64,000 nucleotides of DNA. Origin: Solirubrobacter deserti. Lineage in GTDB: Bacteria; Actinomycetota; Thermoleophilia; Solirubrobacterales; Solirubrobacteraceae. Position numbers and translations under genes: made by a program. The notes beneath the pieces were generated by a model. It worked only from the letters and a program-made list of their open reading frames with translations. It did no database searches and was not told the origin of the DNA. Positions 29,248 to 31,809 of this stretch are shown in pieces. The stretch lies in NCBI RefSeq assembly GCF_003344625.1, contig NZ_QPKJ02000006.1, positions 620,001-684,000 of the forward strand, written 5' to 3'. Within the stretch, counting starts at the first letter, position 1, and each line of letters begins with the position of its first letter.

Positions 29248-30755
29248 TCGTCATGCTCTCGGCCCGCCCGCGCCCCGTCTTCTGCGTCAACGAGCACGAG
29301 CACCGCGACCGGGCGCTCGCGGACGCGGTGGCGAGCGGGCGCTTCACGTTCAACGGGGAGACGCGCACGCTCGGCCTCGAGCCGGACTGGCTGGACGCGC
29401 CGCTTCCGAACGACGAGGAGTGGCGGCTGGACTGGGTCAAGTTCTACTACGGGCTCGACCTCGCGGACGCGTTCCGCGCGAGCGGCGACGCCCGCTACCT
29501 GCACGCGTGGGAGCGGCTGGTGGCGAGCTACATCCTGCAGGTCCAGCCCGGCCACGACGACAGCGAGGTCACCGCCCGGCGCGTGCTGAACTGGATCTAC
29601 GCCTGGCAGCGGCTGCCGGAGGCCGACGCCGGCGTCGCGCACGCACTGTACGAGAGCCTGGGCGCGCAGGCCCGGCACGTGCGCGCGAACCTCTCCCCCG
29701 AGCGCAACCACCGCACGCTGGAGCTGTACGCGCTGCTGATCGTCGCGCTCGCGTTGCCGGGCCTCGGGATCGAGCCCCCGCTCGCCGAGCTGCACGAGAA
29801 CCTGCTCACCGACTTCGGCCCGGACGGCGTGCACCGCGAGCGCTCCACGCACTACCACTGCATCGCGCTGCGCTCGTTCGTCGGCGCGCGCGAGAACTGC
29901 CGGCGCTTCGGCGTGCCGCTGCCCGCGGGCTTCGACGAGCGGCTCGCGCTCGCGTGCGCGTTCGCCCGCGACTGCCGCCGCCCCGACGGCACGATCCCCG
30001 CGCTGAGCGACGCAGACACCGGCGACTACACGGCGCTGCTGCGGCTCGCAGGTCGGCTGCTCGCCCGCGAGGACCTGCTCGAGCCGCAGGCCGGCGCCTA
30101 TCCCGACGGCGGCTACTTCATCCAGCGCACGCGCGACCGCTACCTGATCTTCGACTGCGGCCCGCTGGGTGACGGCGGGCACGGCCACTACGACGCGCTG
30201 AGCCTCGAGGCGTGGGCACACGGCCGGCCGCTCGTGCTGGACCCCGGGCGTTACACCTACGCCGAAGGCAAGCCGAACTGGCGCCACTGGTTCCGCGGCA
30301 CCGCCGCGCACAACACCGTGTGCGTGGACGGCTTCGACCAGACGCCGTACACGCGCTCGCGCTCCTCGCTGCCGAGCGCGCAGGCGACGTTCCTCGGCGG
30401 CGACGAGACCACCCTTGCCGGCGAGGTGCGCTCACCCTGCTACGAGGCCGTGCACCGCCGCCGCGTCACGCTCACCGACGGCCGCTGGGTGATCGAGGAC
30501 GAGCTGGAGGGCGCGCACCGCCACCGCTACGACCTGCGCTGGCACCTGCCGCCCGGGCCCGCCCACCTGCGCGCGGACGGCGTCGTGACGCCCGAGGCCG
30601 AGCTGACGATCAGCGGCGCCCGCTCCGTGGCGCTCGAGGACGGCTGGATCAGCCCTGAGTACGGGATCAAGCAGGCGGCGAAGGTCGTGAGCGCGGTCGC
30701 CGTCGGCAAGCGCGCGCGGTTCGTGACCGTATTGGAGCCGCGTGCTCGCGCCTGA
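29244..30755 (+). CDS. Heparinase II/III family protein
   Basis: 503 residues, GTG start. The N-terminal half is helical (toroid), with SPERNHRTLELYALL. The beta-sandwich half has the Heparinase_II signature in GDGGHGHYDALSLEAWAHG, LVLDPGRYTYAEG and GTAAHNTVCVDG. These residues surround the catalytic Tyr/His used to cleave uronic-acid polysaccharides by elimination. No signal peptide is seen, and the gene sits inside a biosynthesis operon, as lyases do in alginate-type systems, so it may trim or release the product. Overlaps the GT before it by 4 bases and the kinase after it by 14 bases. Confidence 0.9.
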   Translation: MIVMLSARPRPVFCVNEHEHRDRALADAVASGRFTFNGETRTLGLEPDWLDAPLPNDEEWRLDWVKFYYGLDLADAFRASGDARYLHAWERLVASYILQVQPGHDDSEVTARRVLNWIYAWQRLPEADAGVAHALYESLGAQARHVRANLSPERNHRTLELYALLIVALALPGLGIEPPLAELHENLLTDFGPDGVHRERSTHYHCIALRSFVGARENCRRFGVPLPAGFDERLALACAFARDCRRPDGTIPALSDADTGDYTALLRLAGRLLAREDLLEPQAGAYPDGGYFIQRTRDRYLIFDCGPLGDGGHGHYDALSLEAWAHGRPLVLDPGRYTYAEGKPNWRHWFRGTAAHNTVCVDGFDQTPYTRSRSSLPSAQATFLGGDETTLAGEVRSPCYEAVHRRRVTLTDGRWVIEDELEGAHRHRYDLRWHLPPGPAHLRADGVVTPEAELTISGARSVALEDGWISPEYGIKQAAKVVSAVAVGKRARFVTVLEPRARA

Positions 30756-31809
30756 CCCGGTCCTGCCGCGCCGCGACGCGCTCCTGCGCCCGGAGACGAT
30801 GGCCGGCGTGCTGTCCCAGCGCCTGCACGCGGGCGTCCCCGTCGACGCGTGCGAGCGGATGTACGTGAAGTACCGCGTGGGCGACAGCGTGCGCGTCGTC
30901 TACCGCTACCGGGTGGGAGAGACGACCGCGTTCGCCGCGGCCCGCTCCGGCCGCCGTGACGGCGTGCCCGCGCCCGAGGTCGACGCCGCGCTGTATCCGT
31001 TCCCGCACGACCGCAAGCTCGCAGCGCTGCCGCGCCTGCCGGGCCGCCTGATCGCGTGGGCGGCCGAGCAGTCCGCGACCGCCCAGCTCGACGGCGCCTA
31101 CGCGAAGGTGCAGCGCGCCGACGGCGAACGCCGCGGCCTGCGCGCGCTGGCGGACCAGGACGCCGTCCGCGTCCCGCGCCTCCTCGCCGACGAAGACGGC
31201 GTCCTCACGATCGAGGCGCTGCCGGGCCGCCCGCCGGACCTGCACGGCCTCGGCCGCAGCCTCCGCGCGCTCCACAACCTAAAGAGGGACAGTCCCTCTT
31301 TAGGAAACGCCACGGCGCAGAGCCAAAACGGCGTCGATCCGGGCGCGCGCGACATAAAGAGGGACAGTCCCTCTTTAGGAAACTTCGTGCGGCTCGACCG
31401 CGCGCGGCTCGTGACGGCGGCGGAGGTGATCGCGGCCGCGCGGCCCGAGGCGGGCGACGCCGCGAAGCGGTTCGTCGAGCGGCTCGGGGCGCCGCCTGAG
31501 CAGCCGGAGGTGCTCGTGCACGGGGACGCGAATCTCGGCAATGCGGTGCTGCTCGAGGACGGCACGGTCGCGCTGCTCGACCTCGAGCATCTGGCGGTTG
31601 GGCCCGCCGCCGCGGACGTTGGACAGGTGGTCGCGAACCTGCTGGTGGCGGGCGCGGACGCGCGGCCGTTCCTGGAAGGCTACGGCACGCTCGACCGCGA
31701 AGCGCTCAGCTGGTACACGAGGGCGTCGCTGCTCGCGCGGGTCGCGCTGCCCGCGATCAGCCGCTACCGGCCGCAGCTCATCGCCCGGCTTCCGAGGCTG
31801 CTCGCATGA
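30742..31809 (+). CDS. Phosphotransferase (APH/choline kinase-like) carrying two palindromic insertions
   Basis: 355 residues, GTG start at 30742. The C-terminal half has the Brenner-like motif VLVHGDANLGNAVL and the DLE metal motif in VALLDLEHLAVG, as in aminoglycoside/sugar kinases. The N-lobe is divergent (YVKYRVGDSVRVVYRYRVG). Residues about 179-214 are encoded by two near-identical palindromes and the 46 bases between them, reading KRDSPSLGN twice, between the conserved ALHN and FVRLDRARL. It may phosphorylate a sugar of the polymer or its lipid carrier (inference from the operon). Overlaps the next gene by 4 bases. Confidence 0.85.
   Translation: MLAPDPVLPRRDALLRPETMAGVLSQRLHAGVPVDACERMYVKYRVGDSVRVVYRYRVGETTAFAAARSGRRDGVPAPEVDAALYPFPHDRKLAALPRLPGRLIAWAAEQSATAQLDGAYAKVQRADGERRGLRALADQDAVRVPRLLADEDGVLTIEALPGRPPDLHGLGRSLRALHNLKRDSPSLGNATAQSQNGVDPGARDIKRDSPSLGNFVRLDRARLVTAAEVIAAARPEAGDAAKRFVERLGAPPEQPEVLVHGDANLGNAVLLEDGTVALLDLEHLAVGPAAADVGQVVANLLVAGADARPFLEGYGTLDREALSWYTRASLLARVALPAISRYRPQLIARLPRLLA
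31278..31304. repeat. 27-bp perfect palindrome, copy 1
   Basis: CCTAAAGAGGGAC - A - GTCCCTCTTTAGG, 13-bp arms with a single central base. It lies in frame inside the phosphotransferase gene and is far richer in A/T than its surroundings. Its inner 29 bases (31280-31308) recur exactly at 31355-31383. Confidence 0.9.
31355..31377. repeat. 23-bp perfect palindrome, copy 2
   Basis: TAAAGAGGGAC - A - GTCCCTCTTTA, 11-bp arms, followed by the same GGAAAC as copy 1. Copies are offset by 75 bases, a multiple of three, so the reading frame is kept and both encode KRDSPSLGN. Confidence 0.9.

Follow-up and report, generated by a model that had tools for sequence, protein, structure and literature searches.

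How does the gene for an APH-family kinase in Solirubrobacter deserti come to carry two nearly identical palindromes that are translated as part of its product? The gene lies in a window of 64,000 bp, the whole stretch of DNA analysed, for which a sequence-only reading had proposed a small family of mobile palindromes, which genes can carry as a peptide linker. The kinase DNA agrees with that of S. deserti CPCC 204708 at all 1068 bases. We compared the S. deserti assembly (G000) with five relatives of the same genus (G001 to G005). The features of the locus, in window coordinates, are as follows.

30742–31809, + strand: host gene of the APH-family kinase, 355 aa (open reading frame; Pfam PF01636)
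31276–31383, + strand: palindrome-coded loop, 36 residues, directly after the LH motif (comparison with four Solirubrobacter orthologues and L131, L133 and L135)
31278–31304, no strand: palindrome copy 1, CCTAAAGAGGGACAGTCCCTCTTTAGG, 27 bp with an odd central A (self-complementarity)
31355–31377, no strand: palindrome copy 2, TAAAGAGGGACAGTCCCTCTTTA, 23 bp (self-complementarity)
31280–31308, + strand: first 29-base identical unit, the palindrome plus a GGAAAC arm (base-by-base identity)
31355–31383, + strand: second 29-base identical unit (base-by-base identity)
31309–31354, + strand: spacer of the REPIN-like doublet, with a CAGAGCC motif also present in other spacers

The description of the palindromes that we started from is accurate: the 27 bp palindrome and its 23 bp copy are both self-complementary apart from the odd central base, the 29 bases they share at a distance of 75 are exactly identical, and both copies encode KRDSPSLGN within the open frame. 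Their supposed A/T-richness is true relative to the gene (74% GC) but not in absolute terms, since the 27-mer is 52% GC. The match of the kinase to PF01636 covers residues 123–317 (E 2.7e-14), and Pfam identifies a heparinase-like gene (PF07940) on one side and a glycosyltransferase-like gene (PF04101) on the other. Searching the window with GAGGGACAGTCCCTC at up to two mismatches gives four strand-matches at two places, against a shuffle mean of 0.26 and with none of 100 shuffles reaching four. Folded in single-stranded form, the doublet makes a single long hairpin (z −6.5 for DNA and −6.7 for RNA). A kinase structure prediction built from four sequences had a mean pLDDT of 39.5 and was left out of the evidence, and a sequence-based search of solved structures with the kinase and one transposase gave no match.

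A search of the whole genome, as the sequence-only reading had advised, reveals a dispersed family, with 64 exact copies of the core GGGACAGTCCC in the 7.55 Mb assembly and none of the reversed control. A 19-base form allowing up to three mismatches gives 61 forward and 60 reverse matches in S. deserti (control 0 and 0), the two strands counting the same copies twice because the pattern is nearly its own complement. Among 60 relatives searched, a 23-base form was found in three of the five genomes of the genus, with 12, 26 and 56 forward matches in G001, G003 and G004, and had no match in G002, G005 or the 55 relatives outside the genus. Very A/T-rich matches in the short S. deserti contigs C12, C36, C57, C77, C94 and C190 suggest that the assembly contains foreign contigs.

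A typical copy begins with TTTCC, GAACC or GAACT, continues as TAAAG-AGGGAC-A-GTCCCT-CTTTA and ends with the mirror arm. Fifteen close pairs are present in S. deserti, nine of them with a period of 75–78 bp and all with the centre in the same orientation, which counts for little because the palindromes are near-symmetric; L054 holds an additional inverted pair, of period 75, outside this pattern. The partly conserved spacer motif CAGAGCC recurs in the kinase, L051, L062 and L076 (G000), L230 (G001) and L209 (G003). Family palindromes are often joined to another palindromic module, GCGACANNTGTCGC (L039, L044, L049, L064 in G001, L068, and L069 in G003), and L044 is a three-module array common to G000, G001 and G003. 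A 43-base palindrome within a palindrome, its arms repeating with a step of 10–11 bases, recurs in G005 and G003. Nested palindromes (L064 of G005, L058 of G003) might record the moment at which one palindrome entered the tip of another, older one, but as this 43-base form recurs it may be just a subfamily.

The search for a Y1_Tnp or RAYT gene, also suggested earlier, found three IS200-like Y1 genes in S. deserti, two of them lying between family copies of the same core. Y1_Tnp genes number three in G000, one in G001, none in G002 and two each in G003, G004 and G005; the PF01797 matches exceed the cut-off, and HVH and Y-x3-NP motifs were seen by eye in the translation inspected. Four of these proteins (G000a, G000c, G003a and G004a, 73–79% identical over the Y1 domain) constitute clade A, and each of the four genes, one of which lies at L071:3714-4274, is flanked on either side by the GGGAC core. 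G000b and G004b, which are 84% identical, have GGGGTCTGACCCC on one side only; G001a is flanked on both sides by CGTCCAGGACG and G005a by GGGGCCTGACCCC, and G003b has two related cores, TAAAGCCCCAGGTCCTTTA upstream and GGCCCAGGGCC downstream. No palindrome was found near G005b, or near G007 and G013b outside the genus, in a flank survey that left out G013a, G013c, G050 and matches from distant orders. At L049, G003 has a transposase gene between two palindromes, and G000 and G004 have a single palindrome.

Copy number tracks clade A, with 57, 26 and 56 forward matches (up to three mismatches) in G000, G003 and G004, against 12, 0 and 0 in G001, G002 and G005, three genomes in which clade A proteins were not found. 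The arm pattern gives 59 forward matches in G005 against 3 for the control, and most among the matches listed share the core that flanks G005a. The one S. deserti transposase of three run against the NCBIfam model REP_Tyr_transpos (NF047646) scores 63.9 bits (E 1.4e-17), below the cut-off of 80, and in all six proteins run, of ten in the genus, Pfam gives no match besides Y1_Tnp at E 0.1 and hence none for a C-terminal HTH. Some transposase reading frames (L032, L138 and L137) run into their own flanking palindrome, reading ...NLKGSDPFRLLG in G000b, ...PKEGQSLFKKR... in G003a and ...NLKRDSPSLRT... in G004a.

If the 36 residues encoded by 31276–31383 were an insertion into the kinase, as the sequence-only reading had supposed, orthologues might simply be expected to lack them. 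They do not: in all five Solirubrobacter kinase orthologues found (G002, with a weak match only, being excluded) palindrome-coded residues stand right after LH, with differing cores. These residues are NLKRDSPSLGN and DIKRDSPSLGN in S. deserti, NIKRDSPSLS in G004, ELKRPGRLSS, from a 33 bp palindrome, in G001, EHKGPGALS in G003, and NLNPPRPPLGS and NLNGSRPALDS in G005, the former sitting earlier in the protein. In four of the five the core is the one beside a transposase of the same species, and the kinase-site palindromes of G001 and G003 are duplexes identical to ones beside that species' transposase. The G003 palindrome was considered as a decayed copy, but this was rejected because L072 and the flank of a G003 transposase have an identical sequence. 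Three distant homologues (L131, L133 and L135), which have a neighbour gene on the same loci, carry a loop of 9–12 residues at this site, the DNA of which contains no comparable palindrome (best stem 5–7 pairs).

We read the kinase site as one long occupied by palindromes in the genus and not as a fresh insertion. Because the loop is drawn from palindromes in all five orthologues and is palindrome-free in the distant homologues, a palindrome seems, from this comparison, to have replaced the native loop long ago, and the loop of S. deserti seems to have grown to 36 residues. The motifs HGDANLGN and DLE, which presumably have a catalytic role, are identical in the four aligned orthologues. Between species the core at this site differs in length by four bases and the left arm by one, so that a bare swap of cores would need compensating indels.

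The kinase is one of several genes that carry the family. Relative to gene calls from a purpose-made codon-usage script, made without comparison to annotation, 8 of 47 palindrome groups lie well inside a gene, 20 give a gene its stop codon and 19 lie elsewhere; the stop-giving groups do so on the + strand in eight cases, on the − strand in eight and on both strands, for two genes, in four. When cases near gene starts are added to the in-gene groups there are 12 host proteins, kinase included, and in all 12 the reading frame is open through the copy or doublet. The frame is also kept across the site in 23 of 23 orthologue comparisons that gave a match (24 were tried, that at L034 giving none), representing nine of the 12 proteins, with L054 and L061 having no comparator. 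Pfam naming covered 11 of the 12, leaving out L039, and returned the APH kinase, an S9 peptidase, a zinc dehydrogenase, a histidine kinase, a PAD protein, an amidase, two Wzy_C proteins, a double ABC transporter with the palindrome between its halves, and two different GntR-plus-aminotransferase regulators (L057 and L063), which we take to be of the MocR type, with palindrome doublets between the two domains. The amidase gene (L034:3455-4125) contains one palindrome and is closely preceded by another in inverted orientation, 632 bases from the first; the gene had no match at the syntenic place in G003.

At some sites the palindrome is absent from relatives. L068 shows a clean in-frame difference, S. 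deserti being longer by 45 bp than G003, G004 and G005 and by 42 than G001, and at L043, also cleanly in frame, the palindrome is present in G000 and G003 and absent from G001 and G004. At L035 the S. deserti palindrome is cleanly absent from G003 in one frame by protein alignment, nucleotide anchors giving a difference of 38 bases, and L064 is another site that is empty in relatives. The dispersed core, the flanked Y1 genes and the in-frame copies in other genes together support the original proposal, both for the mobility of the family and for its carriage as a peptide linker.

Orthologous sites frequently hold different cores. Among 77 species-site pairs at 35 sites the core is the same in 17, different in 19 (at 11 sites, the kinase and ten others, counting L067, where the S. 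deserti copy has a damaged right arm and an untyped core) and absent in 41 by a strict rule, which skipped six long segments and scored as absent at least seven diverged palindromes visible by eye. Three of the latter have the same core (L044, L059 and L069 in G001) and four another core (the kinase in G005, L063 in G003 and G005, and L064 in G005). Since 41 of 77 pairs lack a strict-rule palindrome, sites are also gained and lost. At the 16 of these sites that were located through a neighbouring gene only (of 19, with L036, L070 and L076, long or unaligned, outside the count), the 46 pairs comprise 13 with another core at the same place, one with the same core and 32 with none. Against the 13, random insertion within 40 bp, with 60 copies in 7.5 Mb, predicts about 0.03; the pairs are not all independent, because G001 and G003 may share inherited palindromes. 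For the other set, relatives' segments were selected by the presence of a close palindrome, a bias towards shared sites. At the kinase, L066 and L072 the core is CGTCC in G001 and GGCCC or GGACC in G003, and these are the cores beside the transposases of the two species, which are 80% identical.

Arms at orthologous sites resemble each other more than those at shuffled sites do. In 31 different-core pairs at 11 sites the arms match at 4.42 of 8 positions, against 3.73 (sd 0.24) when shuffled, the observed value being reached by 2 of 2000 shuffles; in 24 same-core pairs at 18 sites they match at 5.33 against 4.17, with none of 2000 shuffles reaching the observed value. At L072 the arms are identical in G001 and G003 and the cores different, and in the L060 doublet, as read by eye, the spacer is conserved between G000 and G001 while both cores have changed in the same way. 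At L053 the arms of S. deserti share 2 of 8 bases with G001 and 2 of 8 with G004. The centre base differs in eight of 21 same-core pairs (15 sites), and the other core positions differ at 6 of 294, a pattern that appears to fit in-place inversion or re-copying better than point mutation. Flips of the centre base occur at seven of ten sites outside genes and none of five within them, numbers too small to carry weight. Among the orthologous sites compared, none could be identified with certainty as having a half-replaced core.

We propose that the palindromes are a non-autonomous element mobilised by resident RAYT/TIRYT-type Y1/HUH transposases of Solirubrobacter, and consider this account as a whole to be likely. 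These genomes contain dispersed copies, same-core copies flanking transposase genes, sites empty in relatives and frames kept through genes; movement by the transposase is predicted from sequence comparison. The transposase would recognise the hairpin in single-stranded DNA, probably on the lagging strand, and would cut and join either one hairpin or a doublet. Copies whose frame gives a stop codon would persist chiefly at sites where they take the place of a gene end, and those in one of the two open frames would survive as peptides in loops, linkers and termini, and for this reason the kinase with its lengthened loop probably keeps working. A site holding a palindrome may then stay a landing or exchange site, with its core overwritten to match the transposase active in each lineage, which would give orthologous sites species-specific cores. 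The resident palindrome would thus be a lasting docking site at which arms and host frame are kept, and in-gene palindromes would evolve in concert with transposase specificity over the history of the genus; this part we put forward tentatively, the balance tipping slightly against it. We are similarly hesitant about the corollary that the transposase can also insert a spacer or its own gene into a resident palindrome. Our lower confidence in overwriting than in the whole account, and the reserve we keep about both, reflect the fresh gains, the four-base difference in kinase core length with its compensating indels, and the lack of a certain half-replaced core. The transposase genes with a palindrome on one side or on neither, and the NCBIfam score below the cut-off, also weigh against the account.

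The main rival to overwriting is independent re-insertion, by which the palindromes are mobile, cores are never overwritten, and loops and gene ends are hot spots hit separately by different families in each species. Fresh insertion at empty sites does happen (L068, L064), some orthologous pairs have few arm bases in common, as at L053, and the part of PMC3733652 available to us reports that recB of two Xanthomonas carries different REPs at roughly one position. However, arms are shared across different cores beyond shuffle expectation, and they must be element-borne because empty sites lack them; the identical arms at L072 and the spacer kept at L060 also speak against it, and we regard re-insertion as the sole explanation as rather unlikely. 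Selection for functional bidirectional terminators or stop modules, spread by ordinary recombination and with a secondary link to transposases, would accord with the 20 of 47 groups giving stop codons, four of them serving two genes, with the strong RNA hairpin of the kinase doublet and with the well-conserved cores. It is nonetheless improbable, as 12 open frames cross a copy or doublet, where a terminator should do harm, core type goes with the transposase, and G002, without a transposase, was found to have no copies.

Palindromic elements of the Rickettsia type (RPEs, CGTC REPs), which have no dedicated transposase, show the same in-frame carriage in genes in the portion of PMC3733652 that we could consult, but CGTC lies beside 12 of 64 copies against 151 of 384 control places and is therefore not enriched, and flanked transposase genes are present, leaving this explanation very improbable. 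That the two kinase copies are adjacent could point to a local tandem duplication, or to chance self-complementarity, within a single kinase; with 64 copies genome-wide and a shared period of 75–78 bp in nine of 15 close pairs, this is barely credible.

Under the transposase-mobilised account, the nearest known systems are those of the RAYT/TIRYT group; of the kin suggested by the sequence-only reading these stand and the Rickettsia elements fall away. We class the palindromes of this actinobacterium as a RAYT/TIRYT-type family. They lack the tag of classical REPs, GTAG lying near one of 64 copies against 21 of 384 control places (GTGG, 13 of 64 against 73 of 384). The comparisons that follow draw on those parts of the cited reports that were accessible to us. 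TIRtrons/TIRYT consist of a Y1 transposase flanked by inverted repeats that are unrelated to GTAG REPs and in some cases self-complementary (Di Nocera 2013, PMC3733652; Y1 subclass 2.1, PMC6006769), and TIR families are moderately abundant, with some dimers and a shared motif GGGGWSAS (PMC3733652, PMC6006769). Solirubrobacter resembles them in its palindrome-flanked Y1 genes and in the moderate abundance of the repeats, some of them dimers; the GGGGACAG and GGGGTCAG variants fit the motif and the main core reads AGGGACAG. It differs in being an actinobacterium, in its many in-gene copies and in the species-specific cores at orthologous sites, and its transposases, of about 186–191 aa and with no C-terminal HTH match, are unlike the long subclass 2.1 proteins (PMC6006769).

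With REP/RAYT systems and REPINs the family shares an HUH/Y1 transposase flanked by cognate palindromes, a similar doublet period (71 bp there, 75 here) and a copy number that goes with transposase presence (PMC3116915, PMC3686654), as well as the 'orthoswitch', in which orthologous transposases have different palindromes (PMC3686654). Unlike REPINs, most close pairs here agree in the orientation of the centre base, and there is no GTAG tag. In-frame REPs and Rickettsia RPEs are similar in that palindromes are read in frame and supply stop codons to neighbouring genes (PMC3733652), but the palindrome type and the transposase differ, and in Solirubrobacter several sites within coding sequence are retained from species to species, the core differing at some of them. 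As far as those parts go, earlier work already describes REPs that are read in frame or supply stops, Y1 transposases flanked by TIRs, and orthologous transposases with different palindromes beside them (PMC3733652, PMC6006769, PMC3686654, PMC3116915, PMC8049555).

No description of this palindrome family, or of such palindromes in Solirubrobacter, was found in the literature searched, which included few subscription papers, nor did we meet in it one of core switching at orthologous dispersed sites, a topic not queried by name. The nearest precedent seen for such switching is that of the Xanthomonas recB site, in the part of PMC3733652 available. In the published orthoswitch model, as given in the accessible part of PMC3686654, old copies decay in place, whereas old sites in Solirubrobacter carry another core; about the mechanism by which new REP classes replace old ones its authors can only speculate. 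Solirubrobacter offers fixed, alignable sites, several of them in protein genes, at which the core differs between species while arms or spacer stay alike, and at which an orthoswitch could therefore be dated and tested. In this high-GC actinobacterium, short mobile DNA is a source of loops, linkers and stop codons.
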